Shown one piece after another: positions 11,986-52,228 of a stretch of 64,000 bases of DNA. A model generated the notes under the pieces. The model saw only the letters and a list, made by a program, of their open reading frames with translations. It was not told the origin of the DNA and made no database searches. The first letter of the stretch is position 1; every line of letters starts with the position of its first letter. Source of the DNA: Myxococcaceae bacterium. Lineage in GTDB: Bacteria; Myxococcota; Myxococcia; Myxococcales; Myxococcaceae. The translations under genes were made by a program, and so were the position numbers. Location of the stretch: positions 1 to 64,000 of the forward strand of contig JAEUJQ010000012.1 in assembly GCA_016793095.1 (NCBI GenBank), read 5' to 3'.

Positions 11986-14900
11986 ATGAAGGTCTCGTGT
12001 CCGTCGTGCCAGTCGAGCCTCACGATCGACGACAAGAAGATTCCGGCAGGGGGCGCCCGCATCAAATGCCCCACCTGCCAGAACATCTTCCCGGTGAAGC
12101 CCGGCGCGGCGCCTGCTCCAGCGTCTGGCGCGTCGGTCCCTCTGCCGGGTGGTGCCGCTCCCGCTGCGGCCTCGGTTCCGCTTCCTGGCGGCGCTCGAGC
12201 TCCTTCGTCCTCGCCGAGCGGCGCGGTGCCCCTGCCCGGCATCTCGGCGGCCCCCGCGGCCGCGACGGGGTGGGACGAAGAGAAGACGCGGGTCGCTCCG
12301 AGCGGTCCCCTCCCATCGGGCGCAGTGCCGCTGCCTGGCGGCGCCGACGCCCCGACGATCCCGGGAGCCACCCGCACCGCGCCGCCCCCGTCCAACGTGC
12401 CCGCCCGCCCTCCGACGAAGCCTGGCATCGCCGCGGTGCCGCTCCCGGGCATCAGCGCCGCGAAGCCCTCGCCCACGGCGTGGGACGACAACGAGGCCAC
12501 TCGCGTCGGTGAGGGCGGGCCGGGCCCGGCCGCCGTCGACATGGACTTCTCGGCCGCGCCCACTGGCGCCGTGCCGGCCGTCGGCTTCTCGCCGACCGGG
12601 CCGACCCAGTCGATTCCCCTGCCAGGCTCCTCACCCTCTGGCGTGCGCGCTGGCGGCGCGTCGGTTCCCTTGCCGGGCTCCTCGCCCTCCGGCCTGCGCG
12701 CTGGCGGCGCGTCGGTTCCCTTGCCGGGCTCCTCGCCCTCCGGCCTGCGCGCTGGCGGCGCGTCCGTTTCCTTGCCGGGCTCCTCACCCTCTGGCCAGCG
12801 CGCTGGGGCCGGCTCGTCCGCATCAGGCCTCGGCTCGGTTCCGCTGCCGGGGTCGGCCTCTCCTTCGGGGGTCCGGGCGCCTGGCGCCGTGCCCCTCCCC
12901 GGCTCGTCGCCCTCGGGCCTCCGAAGTGCGCCGACCGCGGCGGTTCCCCTCCCGGGGAGCGGCGGCTTCGATGGAGCAGACGCGTTCGAGGAGGACTTCT
13001 CCGAGGTTCCGCCAACCGGGGCGGTGCCGCTGCCGGGCGCCGGCGGGTTCGATGGAGGCGGTGACTCCCTCGAGGCTGACTTCGGGCACGTCCCGCTGCC
13101 TGGCAACGCGCCCACCCAGGCCGTGCCCGCCTACCAGCCGGCGGCAGCCGCGAGCGCTGCCGCGAACTTCGACTTCCCGGACCTCCCGGGTGACGTCGGC
13201 GGTGAAGCCGACCTGCCGCAGTCGGCTCCAGGCGGCTTCGACTTCGGCCCCGCGCCCGCTGCGGCACCTGTCTCGGGCGGCTTCGACTTCGACGCACCGC
13301 CCGCGCCCGCGCCCGTCCCGGCGGCAGGCAGCTTCGACTTCGGCGCACCCGCGCCCGCGCCGGCCCACTCCCCGGCGGGAGGCGGCTTCGACTTTGGCGC
13401 TCCCGCCCCGGCCCCCGCGTCCGCGGGAGGGGGCTTCGACTTTGGCGCTCCCGCCCCGGCCCCCGTGTCCGCGGGAGGGGGCTTCGACTTCGGCGCTCCG
13501 CCCGCGCCGGGCCCCGGTTCCTCAGGAGGTGGCTTCGACTTCGGGGGCCCGCCTGCGCCCGCGCCCGCGTCGGGCGGCTTCGACTTCGGAGCGCCCGCCC
13601 AGGCCACCCCCGCGCCGCACGCTGCTGACGATCTCGCCTTCGACTTCAACGCCCCACCACCAGCGAGCGGCGCCTCGACCAGAGCCTCGCCCTCGTTCGG
13701 AGAGGTCGATCTGGGAGGGCCGGCGGCCGGCGGCCCCGCCGATCTCGAGTTCGACCCCACCGCCGCGCCGAAGAAGGGCGGCGACGATCTCGAGGCCGAT
13801 CTCTCGGCCGCGCTCCCCCCTCAGTCGAGCAGGCCCTCAGGCCCCACTGACGGCCTCGAGATGCTGTCCTTCATCGACGACACGGCGAAGGACGCGGGAG
13901 CCCAGGCCGGCGGCGCGCCGGTGCGTCGCTTCCACATCAAGCGCCGCAGCGGGAAGGTCTTCGGCCCGTTCGAAGAGCCGGTGATCGTCAAGATGCTCGA
14001 AGAGGCGCAGCTGCTCGGGAACGAGGAGGTCTCGCTCGACGCCGAGAGCTGGCAGCCGATCGGCAGCGAGCCCTCGTTCCAGGCCGTCATCGCGAAGTTG
14101 ATGGAGGCCCCCGGGCGCAGCAGCACCCAGCTGGGCCTGCCGCAGGTCGAGGACAAGCCGAAGGGCCCCTCGATGGAGAAGCTGAAGCAGCTCTACGAGG
14201 GCCGCATGGCAGCGGTCGCCGTCGTCGAGAGCAAGGCGCCCGTCCCGTTCATCAAGCGCGTGCCCTGGATCATCGCGGGCGTGGTGGTGGCGGGCATCGT
14301 CGGCAGCGGCGTCTTCGCCGGCGTCGCGACGCCCTACGGCTGGTTCTTCCTCAAGAAGATCTTCCCCGCCAGGGTGAAGCCTGACACGCGCGAGTTCGGC
14401 TACCTGGCGCAGGCGCGGTCCGGGCTGCTGAAAGACACCTTCAAGTCGTACAAGGCTGCCCGCGATCTCGCCAACCAGGCGCTCGACGTGAAGGAGTACC
14501 CCGAGGCGCGCGCGGTGTGGAACCAGAGCGTCTATGCGCTGCGCCGCCGCTACCAGGCAGACGCCCCGGGCGAAGTCGCGCAGGCCGACGGCGAGCTCGG
14601 CAACATCGAGCTGCTGGGTGACAAGCACGTCGAGGTGCTCAAGGCGAAGGCCGCCAGCGCGCTGGTCCAACGGGACGCCGATGGCGCCCTGGCGCTCGTG
14701 AGCGAGGCGTTGGCGCGCGAGGAGAACCAGGACGAGCTCGAGCTCTTCTTCCTGCGCGCCGAGGCCTACCTGCAGAAGAAGAACATCGGCCAGGCCGCGG
14801 GCGAGTATCAGGCGATCCTGACCAGGAACCCGAAGAGCGCGCGCGCGCTGCACATGCAGGCGACGCTCGAGCGCCAGAAGAACGAGGTCGACAAGGCCAT

Positions 14901-18112: not shown

Positions 18113-18151
18113 GGAGCAGTGGCCGAGTGGCTGAAGGCAGCGGTCTTGAAA
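18113..18151 (+). other. tRNA-Ser 5' remnant / left attachment site (attL)
   Basis: These 39 nt match positions 1-39 of the intact tRNA-Ser(UGA) at 51931 with one difference (T at 18128, C in the intact gene). Identity stops in the anticodon loop after TCTTGAAA. The last 23 nt (18129-18151) are identical and probably contain the crossover. The sequence then changes to island DNA and no 3' half follows, so this is not a functional tRNA. It marks where the island entered the chromosomal gene. Confidence 0.92.
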
Positions 18152-41434: not shown

Positions 41435-42130
41435 TTACGCGCGCCCTTCCATCACCCGGCGGACGTGGCTGTGCGAGACCGTCAGTGCGCGCCGTCGGGC
41501 TGGATCGGCGACCTTGAACGCGCCGCGAGCGGTCGAAACGGCGTGGGCGATGCTCCGCCACCCCTCGCCGTCGGCGCGCATCGCGTTGACCAACTCGACC
41601 TCCGCCTTCGTCAGGGGCTTCGGCGGGCGGCCGACGCGCTTTCCGTCCTTCCTCGCCTTCGACATGCCGGACTTCACCTTCGAGGCATGGGTCTTCACCC
41701 ACTCGCGCCCGAGTAGCGCCCGCAGATTGTCTGCCATGTCCCCAGTGAGCGAGCCGTGCTCGTTCACTGTCTTGTCGGCGCGGAAGAGCTTCAGATTGAA
41801 CCGGCGCTCCAACTCGACCTCTGCCCAGCCGTCGATCTTTGAGCCCTGCCGACTGAACCTGTCGGTGCATTCGACCACGATGCCGACCGCTCTCTCGGCG
41901 ACCGCGCGCTTGCACGCCTCGATGAACTTCGGGCGCTCGAACGGGTTCAGCTTGGAGGCCGACGAGCCCTCGTCGATGACCGCATCGAGGAGAACGAGCC
42001 CCTCCCGGTGCGCCCAAGGTCCGATGACTTCGATCTGGCGCTCAGGGACCTGCCCCCGATCATCCGTCGAAGTGCGCAGGTACGGCACGACCGACGAGAC
42101 CTTCCTCGCGCTGTCTTTGTTGGTCTTCAT
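41435..42130 (-). CDS. Serine recombinase (resolvase/invertase family)
   Basis: A 231-residue small serine recombinase. YLRTSTDD at about 17-24 supplies the catalytic serine region, GSSASKLNPFERPKF a flexible segment, and IVVECTDRFSRQG the conserved DRFSR. The C-terminus has a helix-turn-helix (AEVELVNAMRADGEGWRSIA...). It can cut and rejoin DNA at a res/inv-type site. It is the last of five genes overlapping by ATGA. It may resolve dimers or invert a segment of the island, in addition to the tyrosine integrase. Confidence 0.8.
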   Translation of the reverse strand: MKTNKDSARKVSSVVPYLRTSTDDRGQVPERQIEVIGPWAHREGLVLLDAVIDEGSSASKLNPFERPKFIEACKRAVAERAVGIVVECTDRFSRQGSKIDGWAEVELERRFNLKLFRADKTVNEHGSLTGDMADNLRALLGREWVKTHASKVKSGMSKARKDGKRVGRPPKPLTKAEVELVNAMRADGEGWRSIAHAVSTARGAFKVADPARRRALTVSHSHVRRVMEGRA

Positions 42131-42965: not shown

Positions 42966-43240
42966 GCCTTCCCCTCTTTCTGGATGAGCACGGGCTTCCC
43001 CGGCTTCAACTCGGGGAGACGCCGGGAGAGGACCCGGCCGATCTGCTCCGCTACGACACCGGGCGGAGCACCGGACACGACCGCGATGTCCATGAGGCAG
43101 TCGGCCAACGCCCGCATCACCCGACACGCGGACGTGCCATCGCCCTCGCCGAGGTTCATCTTCGACAGGGCCTGCATGACTGCGACTCGGAGCGCAGCGT
43201 GGAGCGCCTTCCTGCTGGGACTGCTGGAGCTTCGACTCAA
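42962..43240 (-). CDS. Small helical protein of recombinase operon
   Basis: A 92-residue protein, MSRSSSSPSRKALHAALRVA..., predicted helical up to about residue 70, followed by RRLPELKPGKPVLIQKEG. Its start overlaps the degenerate recombinase gene by ATGA and its stop overlaps the TTG start of the next gene. No family recognised. Confidence 0.55.
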   Translation of the reverse strand: MSRSSSSPSRKALHAALRVAVMQALSKMNLGEGDGTSACRVMRALADCLMDIAVVSGAPPGVVAEQIGRVLSRRLPELKPGKPVLIQKEGKA

Positions 43241-43866
43241 TGGACACCTCCCTGTGGAATCCCCCGTGCTGCATCGGGCGCGACGCGCGCGCGGTAGGTC
43301 TTCACGAACCTCCGGAGCGTGGTCTCTCCCGCGCCGAGTTGGGCCGCAGCGGCGGCAATGCCCACGTCGGCCGCGAGGCGAAGCACCATCGCCGGGTCAC
43401 CGAACTCGCGCCGTGGCCGACCGAGCCTGCGACCGGCAGCGCGAGCCCGGCTGAGAGCCGCTTTCGTCTGCGCTCGACGGTGTTCGGCCCGCGTCTCCTC
43501 AAGCCACGCGGCGAGGCTCTGGAGCGTCGGTCCGAGGTCCGCGAGGAACGGCTCGGCGGCCGATACGACAACCGCCGTGGATCGAATCTCCGAGGCGGCA
43601 AGAAGAGCTGCGACTGGGTCCTTTGAGAGCGAGCGCAGACTGTCCGTCACTACGACGTGGGCATCTGACGGGAGGACCGCCCGAAGTTGCTCGACGAGCG
43701 TCCCCCGCCTCCTCGGTCGGAACGCGACCTCGCCCACGACAACGAGGCCGAGTCGCTCCGCGTGGAGCCTCATCCGAAGGCGCTGGCTCGCAAGCGGCGC
43801 ACCGCGCCCTACGAGAAGAAGGATCGCTCTTGGCTTCGTGGGTGAGAGCTGCGTCGGTGTGTCCAT
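43237..43866 (-). CDS. Degenerate serine-recombinase-like protein lacking the catalytic serine
   Basis: A 209-residue protein with the layout of a small serine recombinase. The start of the catalytic domain reads AILLLVGRGAPLASQRLRM, where an ordinary enzyme has YxRxS; VVVTDSLRSLSKDP stands for the DRLxR region; GRRLGRPRREF leads to a C-terminal helix-turn-helix (AAAAAQLGAGETTLRRFVK). With no Ser at the expected place it probably binds DNA without cleaving. It heads the five-gene ATGA-overlapping operon that ends with a normal recombinase. An inverted repeat overlaps its start codon, so autoregulation is plausible. Confidence 0.6.
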   Translation of the reverse strand: MDTPTQLSPTKPRAILLLVGRGAPLASQRLRMRLHAERLGLVVVGEVAFRPRRRGTLVEQLRAVLPSDAHVVVTDSLRSLSKDPVAALLAASEIRSTAVVVSAAEPFLADLGPTLQSLAAWLEETRAEHRRAQTKAALSRARAAGRRLGRPRREFGDPAMVLRLAADVGIAAAAAQLGAGETTLRRFVKTYRARVAPDAARGIPQGGVH

Positions 43867-43890
43867 GAATAAACGATATCATCTATGGAC
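43861..43890. promoter_or_regulatory. Inverted repeat at recombinase operon start
   Basis: GTCCAT (43861-43866) and ATGGAC (43885-43890) flank an AT-rich core containing GATATC. It overlaps the start codon of the degenerate recombinase gene and lies before the divergent gene at 43921. It may be the binding site of that protein. Confidence 0.35.
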
Positions 43891-43920
43891 GACACCCAAG
43901 GAGCGGGGTAGGCTTCAGGT

Positions 43921-44829: not shown

Positions 44830-45419
44830 CAGAACGAGTCGACGAACGGCCAGTCTTCGGGAACGGGGGGGCTGGTCAACTCGCCGTATTCGTCGGGATA
44901 CCGTACGAGCCGCCTGATGATGAGGTCGTAGGCGGCGAGAGTCCCGCTCGTGCTGTCCTTCGTGTCAGCCTCGGGTAGTCCAACCAACGGCTCGAACTTG
45001 AAGACGAGGCCGTCGAGGAGCCCTGCCCGGAATGGACTCCTCGCGCGAAGCACCTCGTCGGCCTCTCTCCGAACCGCCCTGAGGACCAGAGCAGCCTCCT
45101 TGGGCGTGCGGCTCTGGGCTCGTGACAGTTTCCGCGCCCAGTCGAGTACGGTGAGGTTGGCCGGACGCCCTTGCTGGGCGAGACGGCCGGCCACCGCCCC
45201 GCAGTCCATGCAGAACGGGACAGTGGTGCCCCTGCCGTTCTTCATGACCAGCGCCGTCCCCGGTGACGGCACCCAGACACACCCGCCGTAGTAGGGGTCG
45301 AAGTCGTACGGTGGCTGGGCGCCGGCCTCAATCAGGTAGACGAAGACCGAGCAGGCGCTGCAACGGACCATGAGCGACAGCGGGTGCTGGGGGGTGAACA
45401 GCGTAGAGGTGGTCGTCAT
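44829..45419 (-). CDS. Zinc-binding hypothetical protein
   Basis: A 196-residue protein starting MTTTSTLFTPQHPLSLMVRC, with CSAC at about 20-23 and CMDCG at about 70-74, plus helices. AAGGAG lies six bases before the ATG at 45419. Same strand and adjacent to another two-CxxC protein. No function recognised. Confidence 0.6.
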   Translation of the reverse strand: MTTTSTLFTPQHPLSLMVRCSACSVFVYLIEAGAQPPYDFDPYYGGCVWVPSPGTALVMKNGRGTTVPFCMDCGAVAGRLAQQGRPANLTVLDWARKLSRAQSRTPKEAALVLRAVRREADEVLRARSPFRAGLLDGLVFKFEPLVGLPEADTKDSTSGTLAAYDLIIRRLVRYPDEYGELTSPPVPEDWPFVDSF

Positions 45420-45449
45420 GTTCAACTCCTTGTGTTCCGGTGCGGGTAG

Positions 45450-45815
45450 TCACTGAGCGCCACGAAGGACCAGCGCGGCGCGGGCACGCTGAAGCAGCTC
45501 CTCTTCTCGTTTTCGCCTCTGGGCGAGGTCCTCGGGCGAGAGCCGGTGGAGGTCAGCCAACGCCGTCAGTTGGGCGGCCAGTTTCTCGACGAGAGCATCG
45601 TCCGCGACGTACCGGCGGATCTTCTCGGCCGAATTTTGGACGAACCCCCTAACGTCGGCTTCGGTCTCGAACGGGATTGCCCTTGGCGGCAGCGACACCC
45701 GCTTCCCGTTGACGACGAGCACGCCGCGAAGCCGGTCGTGGACCTCGGGGCGGCGACGGTTGGAGGAGGGACACTCGGTTCGCATCGGGTGACGGACCTC
45801 GACGCGGATCTTCAT
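45450..45815 (-). CDS. Small basic hypothetical protein
   Basis: A 121-residue, highly charged protein (RVEVRHPMRTECP near the start, AQRRKREEELLQRARAA near the end). GVLVVNGKRVSLPPRAIPFE resembles a short beta-hairpin. It overlaps the preceding small gene by ATGA. No family recognised. Confidence 0.5.
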   Translation of the reverse strand: MKIRVEVRHPMRTECPSSNRRRPEVHDRLRGVLVVNGKRVSLPPRAIPFETEADVRGFVQNSAEKIRRYVADDALVEKLAAQLTALADLHRLSPEDLAQRRKREEELLQRARAALVLRGAQ

Positions 45816-46033
45816 GGCCCACCTCCGTCGAGGACCACATGGGGTTGGTGCTCACTTGGTGCTGGGCCCGAGGTGTCGCGCACGAACAGAGCCGCTTGGA
45901 GGGGCGGTGGCGCGCTGACCAGCGTCGAAGCGGAGAACTGGGAGGGTCGGATGCCGCCCTGCAAGCCCCCGTGACAACTGGAGGAGGGTCGCATCGGGGC
46001 CGTTCCCACGGCTCTTCGTTGAACATTGCTCAT
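45812..46033 (-). CDS. Possible small protein after the primase gene
   Basis: A 73-residue frame starting at 46033, 8 bp after the primase stop and ending in an ATGA overlap with the next gene. Position favours a real gene, but the product is Ser/Pro/Gly-rich without a motif and the ribosome binding site is weak. Confidence 0.4.
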   Translation of the reverse strand: MSNVQRRAVGTAPMRPSSSCHGGLQGGIRPSQFSASTLVSAPPPLQAALFVRDTSGPAPSEHQPHVVLDGGGP

Positions 46034-46040
46034 GAGGTTC

Positions 46041-48281
46041 TCAGAAGGGTACGGACGACCCGCCCGCATCCGACCCATCCGCCCCGCCCTGATTCGACGG
46101 AGGTGACCAAGCATCACCGCGCGGCGGCCTGCGGAGCCGAACACCGACCCAGTACCGCTGGCCTCCGGTCTTCTTGGCGACGAACCCCTTCGCCGTGAGC
46201 TTCACCGCCAGCGCCTTGGCCGTGAGCGAGTCGTTGCCGGTGTCCTCGGCCCAGTTCGCGTAGGCAGTGTGCAGATCTCCTGCCTTCGTGCGGTGCGCGT
46301 CACCGACTTCGCAGACCGCGTCGATGAACTCGCCCATCACGTCCATCTCCGACCTGTAGTCGTCGGTGGCGGCAGTGACCTCGGGCGGGGCCTTGAGCCC
46401 GTCGTGCTGCCACATCAAGCAGCCCTCGACCGCCCACCGGAGAATCCCTGCCTGCTCCTCACGCAGCTTGAGCCCGAGGTCCTTGTCGCGCTCGGGTTCG
46501 GGAATGGTCACGGTGAAGGGCACGAGCTTCACCCTTCGCCAGATGCCGTGGTCCACACCGTTGATGTTCGGCTTGTGGTTCGCGGCCAAGATGATCTTGA
46601 AGGACGGAAGGAACTCGAAGAACTCCTTGAACAGGAAGCGGGCCGTCACCCTGTCGTCCCCTGTGAGCTGCTTGATGAGCGACTCGGAGAGCGTGCGGTT
46701 CTCCTCCGGCTCGACCGCCGAAACGAAGCGCGCCCCGACGAGCCGAGCGATGTCGTTCCTGATGGCCTCGGACTTCCGCTGGAGGAAGGTCGAGAAGTCG
46801 GTGGCCTGCGCGTAGTCGCCCATGAAGCCGCGCAGCGCCTCGATGAAGGTCGATTTCCCGTTCGCACCCGCTCCGTGGAAGATGAAGAACGCCTGCTCAC
46901 TGGTCGAGCCGGTGAGCGAGTAGCCGGAGACCCGCTGGAGGAAGTCGATCAGCGTCCCGTTGCCGCCCATGATTCGGTCGAGGAAGGCAAGCCACTTCGG
47001 ACACGGAGCCGTGTCCGAGTACTCGACGGGCGCGAGCTTCGTGATGAGGTTCGCCTTGTCGTGAGGCAAGAGCTTGCCGGTACGAAGATCGACTGTGCCG
47101 TTGAGCAGGTTGAGCAGCATCGGGCTGGCGTCGAGCGCGTCAGGCTGAACCGGAATGCCCGGCTGACTCTGCGCAAGCGAGACCATCGCCTTGAGCCGAG
47201 CTTCCTTCTCGCTGTTCAGCGCGAATCGGGCGAGCTTGTCCGCCCCGCGAGCGTCGGCCATCTCCCGGAGCTGGCGAACCATCTGCCCGGCGAGGGCGAG
47301 CACCTTCCCCTCGTCATCGAGCTGCCACCGCATCCCGTCCCACACCAGCCACTTCTTCGCCTTGACGTGGAAGCGGATGTTGCCCTTGGCGAACTCGATG
47401 AGCCGCTCCGCGTTGCCGAGGTCGGTGCGCGGAGCTGCCTCCATCATGGACGCGGGCGCGTACCGCGCGACAGACGCGGCAATCGAGTCCACCTCGACCT
47501 CGTCGAGGGGTGGCTCGCAACGGCTCTTGTTCTCCTCGCGCAGCGCCACGCGGATCGTGTCCTCGCTGGCGCCGCGCCTGCGCAGTGAACCACCGACAGA
47601 GACCAGCCAGTCGTGACGGCGACCGGGGTGGATCTTGCCGGAGGACGGACCGCCTGCTTTCCCTGTCGAGGCAGAGGAGGCCGCACGACCAGTTCCAGCC
47701 GCAGGCCCCGAGATGAAGTCGACCCACGCTTCGGGGAGGTCGACAAGCTTGTCGAGCCCGCCGACTTCCCACTTGTACTGACCTCCAGAGGCGTGACAAC
47801 TCGGCGGCGCGACGATGAGCCCGCCCTCCGCGCGCACGTCGATGCCGGGGGCGGCTCCGACCCTGCTGCGGAGCAGGCGCCCCTTCGGAGCCGAGAAGTA
47901 GATGTGGCGGCCCCCACTTCCGGTCCGGACCACAGCCGTCATGGCAAGCGCGCCCAAGGAGCCGATCAGATCCTCCAAGCTCTGGTCACCTCCGTGCGCC
48001 GGGTCGATGTCGATGACGACGATGCCAGCCTCGGTTCCGGTACGAAGGGCGACGTTGGGGAGCGGGAGATCCGCCCACCAAGCAGAGATCCGCTCCGGGT
48101 CAGTCGAGGCGTCCTTGTAGCCGTGCGCGGTTCGGGGGTGCTTGCCGGAATTGGGGCACTTCAGCCCGAGTGAGCACGAACAGCCGGCTCCATCGGGTGC
48201 GAACACCGGGAGCACCGGAACACCGCGCCCTGCGTAGGCCAATGCCGCAGCCTTGGTGTCGGACGAGTCGGGCGGAGTCAC
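46041..48281 (-). CDS. PrimPol / P4-type primase-helicase
   Basis: This 746-residue replication protein has a PrimPol domain at about 10-170 (VPVLPVFAPDG, VVIDIDPAHGGD and TGSGGRHIYFSAP), a primase C-terminal linker, and a D5/P4-type helicase domain with Walker A GAGANGKSTFIEAL at about 465-478 and SVEPEENRTLSE after it. It can make primers and unwind DNA to replicate the excised island. The GTG start at 48281 overlaps the stop of the XRE gene (GTGA), so expression follows that regulator. Full-length and intact. Confidence 0.9.
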   Translation of the reverse strand: MTPPDSSDTKAAALAYAGRGVPVLPVFAPDGAGCSCSLGLKCPNSGKHPRTAHGYKDASTDPERISAWWADLPLPNVALRTGTEAGIVVIDIDPAHGGDQSLEDLIGSLGALAMTAVVRTGSGGRHIYFSAPKGRLLRSRVGAAPGIDVRAEGGLIVAPPSCHASGGQYKWEVGGLDKLVDLPEAWVDFISGPAAGTGRAASSASTGKAGGPSSGKIHPGRRHDWLVSVGGSLRRRGASEDTIRVALREENKSRCEPPLDEVEVDSIAASVARYAPASMMEAAPRTDLGNAERLIEFAKGNIRFHVKAKKWLVWDGMRWQLDDEGKVLALAGQMVRQLREMADARGADKLARFALNSEKEARLKAMVSLAQSQPGIPVQPDALDASPMLLNLLNGTVDLRTGKLLPHDKANLITKLAPVEYSDTAPCPKWLAFLDRIMGGNGTLIDFLQRVSGYSLTGSTSEQAFFIFHGAGANGKSTFIEALRGFMGDYAQATDFSTFLQRKSEAIRNDIARLVGARFVSAVEPEENRTLSESLIKQLTGDDRVTARFLFKEFFEFLPSFKIILAANHKPNINGVDHGIWRRVKLVPFTVTIPEPERDKDLGLKLREEQAGILRWAVEGCLMWQHDGLKAPPEVTAATDDYRSEMDVMGEFIDAVCEVGDAHRTKAGDLHTAYANWAEDTGNDSLTAKALAVKLTAKGFVAKKTGGQRYWVGVRLRRPPRGDAWSPPSNQGGADGSDAGGSSVPF

Positions 48282-48481
48282 GCTGCGGCCCCTTCAAACA
48301 GGTCGGCCTCATCGACCCCGAGCACCTTCGCCAGCAGCGTCCTCTCTCCAACGGTCGGCTCGGCTCGGCCCTGAACTAGCCGAGACAGCCTCGTCTCGCT
48401 GATGCCGACCTCGCGCGCCACCTCGTACTGATGGCGCCCCAGCTTGAAGACCGCGTCCTTGAGCTTGCTGTTCCGATGCAT
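48278..48481 (-). CDS. XRE-family HTH regulator of the replication operon
   Basis: A 67-residue Cro/CI-type protein: KLGRHQYEVAREVGISETRL at about 12-31, then LSRLVQGRAEPTVGERTLLA. It directly precedes and overlaps the primase gene by 4 bp, as regulators do in satellites and integrative islands. GGAGGTAG forms the ribosome binding site and is part of an inverted repeat, suggesting autoregulation. Confidence 0.8.
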   Translation of the reverse strand: MHRNSKLKDAVFKLGRHQYEVAREVGISETRLSRLVQGRAEPTVGERTLLAKVLGVDEADLFEGAAA

Positions 48482-48483
48482 CG

Positions 48484-48533
48484 ACTACCTCCGCCAGTGG
48501 TTGCTGCTGGGAGGTAGTGGACAAGGCCATGCA
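48484..48533 (+). promoter_or_regulatory. Shared operator-like element, copy 1
   Basis: ACTACCTCC (48484-48492) and GGAGGTAGT (48510-48518) form a perfect 9-bp inverted repeat around AGTGGTTGCTG. The whole ~50-bp stretch up to GCCATGCA recurs in inverted orientation at 49785-49837. It sits directly before the XRE gene. Confidence 0.5.
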
Positions 48534-48541
48534 CGCCGCAG

Positions 48542-49801
48542 TTACTCGTCGGGCTCTGTCAGCAGCCCGGAGTCTGCGGCGAGCTTGATGAGGACGACCA
48601 CATCCTCGTCCGCGAGCCAGTACACGCCGTTGCTGTCGCGCGCCGAGTCGAGCACACCAGAGTCGGTCAGGGTCTCAACCCACGACGCCACCAACTCCGG
48701 CAACTGGTTCAAGTCCGCTGCGAGGTCAACGTGCGACCGCAAGCCCATCGTCGGCGCCGCGCTGGGTGCCTGAAGAACACCGAGCGTCTGCCCGTGCGCC
48801 TTGAGCGCCTCGACTTCGCCGTCGGTCAGCCGCGTGACCGTCATGCCCCGGCCTTGCTCGACGTGCGCCTCGATCTTTCGTTTCGAGCGCAGCGTCTTGA
48901 CCCACTTGGCGACGGTGTGCGGGCTCACGCCGAACTCCTTGGCGACCTGATTGACGCTCCTTCGACCATCGACGCGGTGCTCTCTGGCTCGCTCGCCTTC
49001 GAGGCGTCGTTGAGTGATCTGCGCATCGGAGAACTTGCCAGCATTCCCGAGGCCAGCACTCCTTCGCCAACGTTGCAGCGTCTTCGTTGAGACGAACCGC
49101 TCGTCCACTTGATTGAGGCTGCGGACTACGAGTCGCCGGAACGCCTTCCAGACGTACAGGCTCAGCCGCTCGACGCTCCCGGTCAGTTCGTAGCTGTAGA
49201 GGTCCGGCAGGGCACCAGCCTTCGCGTCTTCTCCGAATATCCGGTCGAGCACCTTGTCAGCGAGCTGGTGCTCAACGCCGCAGTACCGCGCAACAGGGTC
49301 GGCGATCTCCTTCACGCAGGCGCGCACGAACTCCTCGGCCTCGGCGTCATCGCGCGCCGCCTGAATGGAGGCGATGGCAAGCGCCTCTGTGAACAGCGCC
49401 TGCGCCTGAACCTGCCCAGTGGCCTCCTCCACCTCTCCGCGCTGCACGCGGTCGAAGAGCAGTCCCACCGCCCCTGCCGCACGCATGAACCAGTGGGCGG
49501 TCTCGGCTGCGCGAGGCGAGACACCCGATGGCATGAGCCCCTTTCGCACGTCGCCTTCCGCCCGCCGAAGGGAAGGCAGGTGTGCCGCCCCGCGAAGGAG
49601 CAGCGAGCGAGCCACCTCTGCTTGATGACGCTCCTCCTCGTTCTTGGGCTCGGCGACCAGCACTCGGGCGATTCCGCCAAGAACGGGTCCTACGAGTTCT
49701 CCCTGCGGCATTCGACTACCAAGTCGCGTGAGGCGCGCCCGCATCCACGCGAGGAACTCGTTGGCGTTCGGCCGCCGGGCTGGCTGCATGGCTCTGTCCA
49801 C
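48542..49801 (-). CDS. HTH-containing protein of the island control region
   Basis: A 419-residue protein (GTG at 49801, or 415 from the ATG at 49789). The first 250 residues are helical without a recognised family. A helix-turn-helix at about 288-312 (RSVNQVAKEFGVSPHTVAKW) indicates DNA binding. It is divergent from the small gene/xis/int unit and flanked on both sides by copies of the same operator-like element. Probably a regulator or replication-initiation protein; both are open. Confidence 0.6.
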   Translation of the reverse strand: MDRAMQPARRPNANEFLAWMRARLTRLGSRMPQGELVGPVLGGIARVLVAEPKNEEERHQAEVARSLLLRGAAHLPSLRRAEGDVRKGLMPSGVSPRAAETAHWFMRAAGAVGLLFDRVQRGEVEEATGQVQAQALFTEALAIASIQAARDDAEAEEFVRACVKEIADPVARYCGVEHQLADKVLDRIFGEDAKAGALPDLYSYELTGSVERLSLYVWKAFRRLVVRSLNQVDERFVSTKTLQRWRRSAGLGNAGKFSDAQITQRRLEGERAREHRVDGRRSVNQVAKEFGVSPHTVAKWVKTLRSKRKIEAHVEQGRGMTVTRLTDGEVEALKAHGQTLGVLQAPSAAPTMGLRSHVDLAADLNQLPELVASWVETLTDSGVLDSARDSNGVYWLADEDVVVLIKLAADSGLLTEPDE

Positions 49802-49837
49802 TACCTCCCCGTGAACGGGCCAGCAACCACTGGAGGT
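49785..49837 (-). promoter_or_regulatory. Shared operator-like element, copy 2
   Basis: An inverted copy of the element at 48484-48533, sharing GGAGGTAGTGGACA, GCCATGCA and AGTGGTTGCTG blocks. It lies in the divergent region between the HTH gene and the xis/int unit, so one regulator could control replication and integration genes together. Confidence 0.5.
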
Positions 49838-49860
49838 TGCAGCCAGAAGAGGAGGACGCG

Positions 49861-50202
49861 GTGACGAGAACCAGCTTGAAGAAGGGGGCCCGGAACAAGG
49901 CCAAGGGCTCGGGCGGGCGCGCCTTCGTCGCGATGGTCCCGGTCTACTGGACCGTCGAAGACGAGGTGTTCCTGAAGGGCTTCGCTGTGCGCGCGCTCTC
50001 TCGCTGGGCCGCCTACGACAAGGCCAAGGAGATCCTTGAGTCCACGGCGTGGTGGGACTTGCTCTGCATCGACCCCACCGACGGGGACGAGCGCCAAGAG
50101 TACGTCATCGGAGAGCCGTGGGTGGAGCGAGCGGGCGACCTCACGGGCCTGTCGTTCCTCGACGACGTGCCGACCCACCAGTCGCAGGTCACGTCGCGGT
50201 GA
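49861..50202 (+). CDS. Small protein upstream of excisionase
   Basis: A 113-residue protein from GTG 49861, with GGAGG five bases before it. The N-terminus is basic (RTSLKKGARNKAKGSGGR); the rest is acidic and Trp-rich (VYWTVEDEVFLKGFAVRA). It overlaps the xis-like gene by GTGA. No family recognised; its place suggests a role in integration or its control. Confidence 0.6.
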   Translation: MTRTSLKKGARNKAKGSGGRAFVAMVPVYWTVEDEVFLKGFAVRALSRWAAYDKAKEILESTAWWDLLCIDPTDGDERQEYVIGEPWVERAGDLTGLSFLDDVPTHQSQVTSR

Positions 50203-50642
50203 GCGAGAACGGCCAGCAGCCGGGGAGACTCCCCGTGGAAGAAGCGACCACCAGCATCGACCGCGTGCTGCGGCAGCTCGTGCGGGAGGAGCTGGTGCAG
50301 GTCGTGCGCGCCGAGCTTCCGGCTCTCCTGCGGGCCTCGGAGACCACCGCGAGGAGCGACCTGCTCTCCGTTGATGAAGCTGCCCAGCGACTCGGCGTCT
50401 CGCCGCACACCGTCTACAAGCGGGCGAACAGCGGGAAGCTGGCCTCCGTGAAAGATGGCGGGCGCCTGCTCTTCCGCCCGGAGGATCTCGACGCCCACGT
50501 CGCGTCCTGCCGCAGGTCAGCGAAGCCGGCGGTCACCCCCGAGATCGTCGCGGCCATCGCGGTTCACGCGCAGCAGCCGAAGAAGCACAAGAAGCCGACC
50601 TCGCGGTCCGACGAGCCCGAGGACGTCACCCCCACGAAGTAG
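50199..50642 (+). CDS. Excisionase-like HTH protein
   Basis: A 147-residue protein with a MerR/Xis-type winged helix at about 58-107: LLSVDEAAQRLGVSPHTVYK, then RANSGKLASVKDGGRLLF and RPEDLDAHV. This is the pattern of excisionase-family domains that bend att DNA and direct the integrase. A helical N-terminus may oligomerise; the C-terminus is Lys/Pro-rich. It is 20 bp upstream of the integrase gene. Confidence 0.8.
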   Translation: MSENGQQPGRLPVEEATTSIDRVLRQLVREELVQVVRAELPALLRASETTARSDLLSVDEAAQRLGVSPHTVYKRANSGKLASVKDGGRLLFRPEDLDAHVASCRRSAKPAVTPEIVAAIAVHAQQPKKHKKPTSRSDEPEDVTPTK

Positions 50643-50662
50643 AAAGAGAACAGGAGAACACG

Positions 50663-51850
50663 ATGGGCCACATCTACAACCGAGGTACGAGGTCGAAGCC
50701 GAACTGGTGGATCAAGTGGACGGCGCCGGACGGCACGCCCTCGTACAGGGGCATTGGTAACGACCGCCAGCTCGCCGACAAGGTGCTCAAGAAGATCGAG
50801 GCCGACATCGTCGCGGGTCGCTTCAACCTCCCCCGCGCCCCCGGCGAGTTCCCCTTGTTCAAGGAGCAGTCGGCGACGTGGCTCAAGACCCGGTCGGCGA
50901 AGAACAAGGACGGCCAGCCTGCCGTTCGGAGCTGGAAGGATGACCGCGCCCGCCTCAAGCACTACCTCGACCCGTTCCTTGGCGAGATGAGGCTGAACGA
51001 GATCCACAAGGCGGAGGTCCGCGCCTTCATCGAGTTCGTGCGCCCGAAGCTCGCCCCGCAGAGCATCCGCAACTGCCTCAACATCCTGAGCCGCCTCCTC
51101 AACGACTGGAACGAGGACAACGACGAGAAGGGCCTCGGCGTGGTGAACCCCGTCTCTCGCCTGAGCCGCGCCACCCGCAAGCGCATCGGTCCAAAGTGGG
51201 ACCCGAGGAAGACGCCCTTCCTGAAGACCAAGGCGGAGATCCGCGCCACGTACCTCGCGCTCCCGCAGATGAGCCGAACCGCGCCGTGGCGCGCGATGTA
51301 CGGCGTCGGCGTCTTCGCCGGCCCCCGCCCCGAGGAGATCCGCGCCCTCAAGTGGTCAGACTTCGACTTCAACACCCGTCTCCTCCACATCCAGCGAACG
51401 GTGGAAGGACCGCTCAAGGACGACGAGTCGCGGCATGTGGTGATGACCGACACGCTGGTGGAGGTGCTGACGGAGTGGCGGCGGGTGTCCCAGCCCGAGA
51501 GCGAGACGAGCTGGTGCTTCCCCTCGACCGGCCACCGGGGAACGTTCGTGAAGCCGCACAATATGGCCGCCGCGCTGAGGGAGGCCCTCAAAACCGTTGG
51601 CAAAGCGGAACTGACTTGGTATCAGGCGACGCGCCACACCTTCGGCAGTCACTGGGTGATGGACGGTGGCAGCTTGGAAAAGCTGAGGGTTGTCCTCGGC
51701 CATTCGACAACGGAAGTGACCCTCCGGTACGCGCATCTCGTGCCGGGGCAGTTCACGGAGGACGAGCGCCGACTGGTGACGGTCTCGCTCACCGAGGGCG
51801 AAGTGGTCGAGTTGGACAGGGCGAGGGCGAAGAAGAGGGCGGGTACGTAG
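50663..51850 (+). CDS. Tyrosine integrase
   Basis: A 395-residue phage-type integrase. The N-terminal part contains an arm-binding AP2-like region (MGHIYNRGTRSKPNWWIKW), then a SAM-like core-binding domain at about 65-160. The catalytic domain has Arg in GPRPEEIRALKW at about 219-230, the box QATRHTFGSHW at about 320-330 where Gln-x-x-Arg replaces the usual His-x-x-Arg, and LGHSTTEVTLRYAHL with the nucleophilic Tyr near 357. It reads toward the junction tRNA 80 bp downstream and is the obvious enzyme for island integration. Confidence 0.93.
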   Translation: MGHIYNRGTRSKPNWWIKWTAPDGTPSYRGIGNDRQLADKVLKKIEADIVAGRFNLPRAPGEFPLFKEQSATWLKTRSAKNKDGQPAVRSWKDDRARLKHYLDPFLGEMRLNEIHKAEVRAFIEFVRPKLAPQSIRNCLNILSRLLNDWNEDNDEKGLGVVNPVSRLSRATRKRIGPKWDPRKTPFLKTKAEIRATYLALPQMSRTAPWRAMYGVGVFAGPRPEEIRALKWSDFDFNTRLLHIQRTVEGPLKDDESRHVVMTDTLVEVLTEWRRVSQPESETSWCFPSTGHRGTFVKPHNMAAALREALKTVGKAELTWYQATRHTFGSHWVMDGGSLEKLRVVLGHSTTEVTLRYAHLVPGQFTEDERRLVTVSLTEGEVVELDRARAKKRAGT

Positions 51851-51866
51851 TTACGTTTCAGTTACA
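51849..51866. promoter_or_regulatory. Putative integrase arm sites, right end
   Basis: AGTTACG (51849) and AGTTACA (51860) start 11 bp apart, like the pair at the left end. Two copies of AGGTAGTTG (51878 and 51923) follow closer to the core. Together they look like arm sites between int and the attR core. Confidence 0.5.
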
Positions 51867-51930
51867 GCGGGTCGTTGAGGTAGTTGCAGGAGGCAGGTAA
51901 GTAGGCGAAAGCTCGGCCCGTAAGGTAGTT

Positions 51931-52017
51931 GGAGCAGTGGCCGAGCGGCTGAAGGCAGCGGTCTTGAAAACCGCAGAAGCTGAAAGGCTTCCGAAGGTTC
52001 GAATCCTTCCTGCTCCG
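51931..52017 (+). tRNA. tRNA-Ser(UGA), reconstituted at attR
   Basis: Acceptor GGAGCAG pairs with CTGCTCC (52010-52016), discriminator G at 52017. The anticodon arm GCGGT-CTTGAAA-ACCGC gives TGA; the long variable arm is typical for tRNA-Ser. CCA is not encoded. Its 5' half up to the anticodon loop comes from the island and its 3' half from the chromosome. Confidence 0.97.
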
Positions 52018-52053
52018 AGAGGTAGTGCGGTTCTTTGTCATCTTTTTCGTTGT

Positions 52054-52140
52054 GGGGAGATGGCCGAGAGGCTGTAGGCGCAGGTTTGCTAAACCTGTAT
52101 ACTCGCAAGGGTATCGAGGGTTCGAATCCCTCTCTCTCCG
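52054..52140 (+). tRNA. tRNA-Ser(GCU)
   Basis: Acceptor GGGGAGA pairs with TCTCTCC (one G-U). Anticodon arm CAGGT-TTGCTAA-ACCTG gives GCT. Long variable arm and GAGGG-TTCGAAT-CCCTC T arm are present; discriminator G. Confidence 0.97.
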
Positions 52141-52154
52141 CACCAGGTCGCAAA

Positions 52155-52228
52155 GCTCCCTTAGCTCAGCTGGATAGAGCGTTGGACTACGAATCCAAAG
52201 GCCGGAGGTTCGAATCCTCCAGGGAGCG
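52155..52228 (+). tRNA. tRNA-Arg(ACG)
   Basis: Acceptor GCTCCCT pairs with AGGGAGC, discriminator G at 52228. Anticodon arm TTGGA-CTACGAA-TCCAA gives ACG, the bacterial tRNA whose A34 is changed to inosine by TadA. The tadA gene starts 23 bp downstream. Confidence 0.97.

Follow-up and report, generated by a model that had tools for sequence, protein, structure and literature searches.

Repeated or complementary control sequences are known from several systems. The C4 RNA of P1 and P7 is a short, processed RNA of about 77 nt. Part of a mobile-element immunity system, it places its b′ loop on the ribosome-binding site (RBS) of its target, with a′ upstream (PMC5320573, PMC12197685). The satellite P4 has a CI RNA that works with seqA and seqC, complementary sequences repeated before the replication operon, and acts through premature transcription termination (PMC4825925). 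This immunity RNA is noncoding and pairs with sequences before and after it. In PLE, a phage satellite of Vibrio cholerae, IIR is a predicted noncoding transcript between inverted repeats, with antisense homology to leaders (PMC7567579). On the side of protein-DNA control, lambda DNA loops between OL and OR over 2.3 kb (PMC3708714), and the switch of plasmid pLS20 involves looping between homologous operators (PMC4207663).

The locus analyzed here lies in a 64-kb window (the whole stretch of DNA under study) that contains an island spanning about 33.8 kb, with 39-bp direct repeats at its borders. The left att-like copy (18113–18151) matches the right copy (51931–51969, plus strand) at 38 of 39 positions, and the repeat corresponds to the greater part of a tRNA-Ser(TGA) gene's 5′ half. 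The tyrosine integrase gene of the island adjoins the 5′ end of this tRNA gene; islands mostly use the 3′ end. Two operons face outward from the control region. Leftward, on the minus strand, follow the genes for a 419-residue helix-turn-helix (HTH) protein (419; 48542–49801), a 67-residue XRE protein (HTH_3; 48278–48481) and a P4-family primase/helicase with Prim-Pol, PriCT_1 and D5_N domains (46041–48281). The primase matches TIGR01613 at 299.1 bits (cut-off 108.7), and its start overlaps the end of the XRE gene by 4 nt. Rightward, on the plus strand, the order is a 113-residue ORF (49861–50202), an excisionase-like HTH_17 protein (xis; 50199–50642, from a GTG start at 50199 that we chose) and the tyrosine integrase (int; 50663–51850).

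Two elements in opposite orientation, A (48484–48533, plus strand) and B (49785–49837, minus strand), flank the 419 gene. The sequence-only reading had placed them at these coordinates and listed their shared blocks correctly, and it was also right about their setting: A lies directly before the XRE-primase operon, and B separates the 419 gene from the 113/xis/int operon. The gap that contains A, from the 419 gene to XRE, is 60 nt long (48482–48541). Block 1 (CCAGTGGTTGCTG; plus strand 48494–48506 in A, minus strand 49821–49833 in B) is identical at all 13 positions, and block 2 (GGGAGGTAGTGGACAnnGCCATGCA; plus strand 48509–48533 in A, minus strand 49785–49809 in B) at 23 of 25. The blocks of 13 and 25 bp are collinear, separated by 2 bp in A and by 11 bp in B. 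A gapped alignment of A and B has 43 paired columns, 39 of them identical (counted by hand), and a single 9-bp gap. Read from either outward operon, the two elements have the same orientation.

Of the 59 nt that separate the GTG start of 419 from the 113-residue gene, B takes up 36, and it covers the 419 Shine-Dalgarno sequence (SD) together with the possible GTG and ATG starts. The SD-like GGAGG of 419 (49801–49808, minus strand) stands 2 nt before the GTG at 49801 and 14 nt before the alternative ATG at 49789. In A, the XRE SD (GGAGGTAGT; 48484–48492, minus strand), whose GGAGG lies 6 nt before the ATG, is the left arm of a perfect 9-bp dyad, ACTACCTCC/GGAGGTAGT, with a 17-nt loop. The right arm (48510–48518, plus strand) reads ACUACCUCC in minus-strand RNA and can pair with the SD of XRE or with that of 419; 419 and XRE-primase have the same extended SD, GGAGGUAGUsGa. 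Whether the similarity was confined to ribosome-binding sites had been set beforehand as a test, and it was not: 34 of the 39 identical bases fall outside one GGAGG core, including the whole block upstream, so a common control element is a reasonable interpretation. A and B form a real, well-placed inverted pair, and we consider the pair probably regulatory.

The rarity of the pair depends on how it is scored. With a chained score that joins two inverted segments whose arms lie within 2 kb, A-B reaches 29 and is the best inverted pair of the window at that distance, the next distinct pair scoring 19. None of 300 simulated first-order Markov windows attained 29 (maximum 23), and 987,951 bases of other fetched DNA (G+C at least 55%, some loci overlapping) contained one pair above it, with arms about 50 nt apart. 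Under ordinary blastn gap costs, over all pairs of the window, A-B reached no more than 20 (E 0.013), a score similar to those of several inverted pairs unrelated to it, so that its significance comes from the closeness and collinearity of the segments and the allowed 9-bp gap and not from raw length. Searched against its own 8.8-Mb genome, A matched itself and B (E 4.9e-4), followed by 11 further places, all at E 0.94 or worse. A different inverted pair, 49247–49273 and 50762–50788 (27 nt, 89%, chained score 19), joins the 419 gene and the integrase gene, with both arms coding.

The sequence-only reading had proposed looking for the motif at the same places in related islands, and this gave it no support. 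Allowing relaxed matches, the exact two-block motif occurred in one of 195 phylum genomes, the genome of the window itself, and the block-2 motif had no exact match in IMG/VR. The sole relaxed-motif match in IMG/VR (L173), which falls within a glycine-rich gene on a contig rich in A+T, was taken as chance. We scanned 143 loci in all: 127 primase-ORF loci, comprising 4 longer regions, 43 from the genome collection and, out of 424 in IMG/VR, the best 80, and 16 that came from other searches; three places are counted twice among the 127, and many loci end at contig ends. No relative of 419 or of the 113-residue protein was present in any of the 127 related-primase loci (for IMG/VR, the best 80 of 424), and across the 143 such relatives appeared in two loci alone, L032 and L047, each a piece of the own genome. 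Weak relatives of XRE (E 6e-4 to 0.01) were present in five loci, in two of which (L054 and L082) they lie on the primase strand within 0.8 kb before the primase. In the stretch before the primase, single inverted pairs scored at most 17, compared with 19 for block 2 alone, across 119 of the 127 loci, the other eight yielding no result, as the scan omits any stretch that is shorter than 600 bases or has no such pair.

Protein searches gave a similarly narrow distribution. Relatives of 419 were found in one of 144 genomes, its own, and in two of 195 phylum genomes, of which one was again its own and the other had a weak, HTH-only match (E 0.006); there were none in phage records, and none in IMG/VR or the genome collection, where the scans find close relatives only. 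Six plasmid records showed similarity to the HTH region of 419 at E 0.02–0.07, five of them annotated as IS630 transposase and one as hypothetical. For the 113-residue protein, the only one of 147 genomes with a match was its own, and IMG/VR yielded none. Since these searches gave no relative of the element or of the 113-residue gene, and for 419 nothing beyond weak HTH matches, no claim made here rests on conservation; all the evidence comes from one pair in one genome.

We tentatively interpret A and B as a matched regulatory pair that acts chiefly at the RNA level. RNA pairing is narrowly favored, and an operator pair resembling OL and OR of lambda is almost as likely. On the minus-strand transcript path, which would run through both elements, B would lie at the translation start of the 419 mRNA and A in the XRE-primase leader directly downstream. 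As inverted copies, A and B give RNAs that are antisense to each other in two blocks, of which block 2 would pair over the 419 SD and starts and block 1 upstream of them, with the 9-nt spacer difference looped out. On its own, the A strand ACUACCUCC would pair with the XRE SD, GGAGGUAGU. Once paired with the 419 mRNA, within one long transcript or in trans, A would cover the 419 SD and leave the XRE SD freer, and we propose that 419 would consequently be turned down and XRE, with the overlapping primase, turned up. Transcription of both elements, pairing in the cell and this regulatory outcome are what we infer from the sequences, positions, complementarity and predicted energies, which are themselves observed.

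Several features argue for RNA pairing. The 13 + 25 nt of complementarity fall on the SD and starts of 419 and beside the SD of XRE, and as RNA one of the two block-2 mismatches becomes a G-U wobble. The two 91-nt leaders have a predicted interaction of −34.8 kcal/mol, compared with a best value of −18.0 and a median of −6.0 for 289 random island pieces. Upon binding, the predicted unpaired probability of the 419 SD falls from 0.51 to 0.001, while that of the XRE SD rises from 0.009 to 0.395, and the minimum-energy fold of a 1406-nt minus-strand stretch pairs A with B. The unequal spacers between the blocks would suit RNA pairing more easily than a single rigid protein site. The sequence-only reading took the two elements for a common switch of replication and excision; a shared control element is a reasonable part of that proposal, and a protein operator that couples replication to excision a possible one. 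The differing dyad spacing described below, the absence of a compact dyad common to A and B, the 9-bp spacer difference and the match on the SD and starts of 419 suit RNA pairing at least as well.

Other results limit how far these predictions carry. Complementary RNA would come from any inverted repeat, so the predicted energies are no proof of function; A and B RNAs from the plus strand also pair (−87.4), which counts against the RNA interpretation. In a bare duplex score, A-B reaches −94.2, a small lead over the −85.3 of the best of 837 other minus-strand pieces. Even when the leader is free, the start codons of 419 are for the most part paired (unpaired probability 0.127 for GTG and 0.243 for ATG), and the value for the XRE ATG hardly shifts (0.404 to 0.447). 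Compared with shuffled sequences, the hairpin of the XRE SD is modest (z −2.44 for 57 nt and −0.46 for 91 nt), and perfect 9-bp dyads with loops of 3–30 nt, such as the one in A, are common, with 12 in the window. Block 1 can be part of the 419 mRNA only if transcription begins at or above 49833, either within the 28 bp that directly precede the 113-residue gene or within that gene. Among Rfam matches at E up to 1 in 45000–52200, none overlaps A or B, and only tRNAs attain the gathering score. The predictions show that an RNA mechanism is possible, not that it operates, and are in large part a consequence of the repeat itself.

Of the described RNA systems, C4 of P1 and P7 resembles the locus in its design, since A is likewise antisense in two blocks, one on the RBS of the target and one upstream. 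It differs in that the region of A and B has no match to C4 in the Rfam search (45000–52200, E up to 1), and in that about 1.25 kb, with a gene in between, separates the partners here. The likeness to P4 lies in repeated complementary sequences before a replication operon and, at this locus, in a primase of the P4 family, whose control through A and B would follow from the proposed pairing. P4 immunity acts through termination, whereas here the SD would be involved, a gene for an HTH protein lies between the copies and an XRE gene stands ahead of the primase. PLE IIR, from a phage satellite, shares inverted repeats and antisense homology to leaders, but it is predicted as a noncoding transcript between its repeats, where the present locus has a 1.26-kb gene. 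If RNA pairing is correct, RNA immunity of the C4 and CI type would gain a new arrangement, in which one pair switches two regulators of a single transcript.

The pairing might also take a reciprocal form, which we regard as unlikely, in which a single anti-SD strand in the intergenic region would select either the SD of 419, located some 1.25 kb upstream of A on the same strand, or that of XRE-primase, which follows A. Transcription past A would then shut the first gene of the transcript and open the second, building in a delay from repressor-like to replication functions. Titles and the beginnings of abstracts contained nothing like such a toggle, which does not prove its absence from print.

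The alternative at the DNA level is that A and B are operators to which the 419 protein, or XRE, binds as a repressor, a reading we consider almost as likely as RNA pairing. Repression at A would shut XRE-primase, repression at B would shut 113/xis/int, and 419 would control itself at B. A DNA loop of about 1.3 kb is possibly involved, in a plan like that of lambda OL and OR around cI. The layout agrees with this: a regulator gene lies between two homologous elements, the replication and excision operons face outward on both sides, and each element has the same orientation relative to its outward operon. Looping between homologous operators is itself known, from lambda (PMC3708714) and plasmid pLS20 (PMC4207663). 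If A and B are an operator pair, the island would have a switch of the lambda type, built on an unfamiliar HTH regulator, that ties its replication to its excision.

The symmetry of the elements speaks partly for and partly against operators. Lambda immunity uses dyad-symmetric operators and a CI repressor with a C-terminal peptidase/dimerization domain. The sequence-only reading had pointed out ACCTCC/GGAGGT dyads, and such widely spaced arms are present in both elements; their spacing differs, however, being 17 nt in A and 23 nt in B (a 6-bp dyad), and at the nine half-site and spacer settings tried, evaluated against 542 island windows, A and B share no compact dyad, unlike the operators of lambda. 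B by itself has a compact imperfect dyad (8+2, 7 of 8 pairs), which counts in favor of an operator there and is matched or beaten by 24 of the 542 island windows. It also carries two dyads absent from A, GCAACC/GGTTGC (6 bp, 6 apart) and CTGGCTGCA/TGCAGCCAG (9 bp, 49 apart). Operators would be expected to show less identity than the 36 of 38 block bases that agree here, and a scan of 48200–50300 for sigma-70-type promoters, the only type it covered, found none.

The 419 protein has an HTH at residues 281–305, which counts for operators; its HTH_23 score is 24.8 bits, just above the cut-off of 24.6. A weak match (E 0.79) and a poor structure model hint at a second winged-HTH-like unit near residues 351–407. 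Several HTH units in one protein could allow it to bind a site without symmetry, so operators lacking a common dyad are conceivable. The single-sequence model has a mean pLDDT of 48, and a fold search with it returned no match at E 0.001 or better. Unlike lambda CI, 419 has no match to a CI-type peptidase domain, none of the 20 families listed at E up to 0.1 being a peptidase, and XRE has only 67 residues.

A serious null is that A is a passive inverted duplication, recent or inert, in which a fold-back or template-switch event copied the 5′ end of 419 behind its own stop codon without any function; on balance we think this unlikely. A does repeat the SD, the GTG and the first codons of 419 (VDRAM/VDKAM), in a frame that stops after 23 codons, and the flanks of A and B diverge abruptly. 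The pair was met in this genome alone (own genome and 195 phylum genomes searched), and one 9-bp gap with four mismatches would fit modest drift of one copy. Against a functionless copy stands the position of the elements in a control region that is packed except for two non-coding gaps: A falls inside one of these, B within the other and along its edge.

It is very doubtful that the repeats bound an invertible segment, in which a recombinase would flip the 419 gene from the XRE-primase transcript to the xis/int transcript. Inverted repeats do stand on both sides of one whole gene, and the island encodes a serine recombinase (41435–42130; Resolvase, E 3.6e-12) with a weak C-terminal resemblance to DNA invertases (E 0.004) and with YLRTS and DRFSR stretches that look catalytic. 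The repeats lack a crossover dyad for a serine or tyrosine recombinase, however, with 227 to 539 of the 542 island windows equaling A/B at settings 12+2, 12+1, 11+7 and 11+8, and the assembly has one orientation only. Least probable of all, and largely refuted, is an insertion-sequence-like unit with A and B as terminal inverted repeats of the 419 ORF: its length of about 1.35 kb, an ORF that starts inside one repeat and weak HTH-only matches to IS630 and other transposases, all within residues 240–334, are outweighed by the lack of a match to a catalytic transposase domain in Pfam, NCBIfam and PHROGs, by its single copy in the own genome and by the lack of a target-site duplication visible by eye.

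Elsewhere in the island, a second, weaker resolvase-like ORF lies at 43237–43866. The 100-base step 43801–43900, at the start of this ORF, has 46% A+T, the highest of any such step in 43–52 kb, and is possibly a promoter or an origin. Outside the island, the window holds imperfect direct repeats of about 73% identity at 13230–13618.
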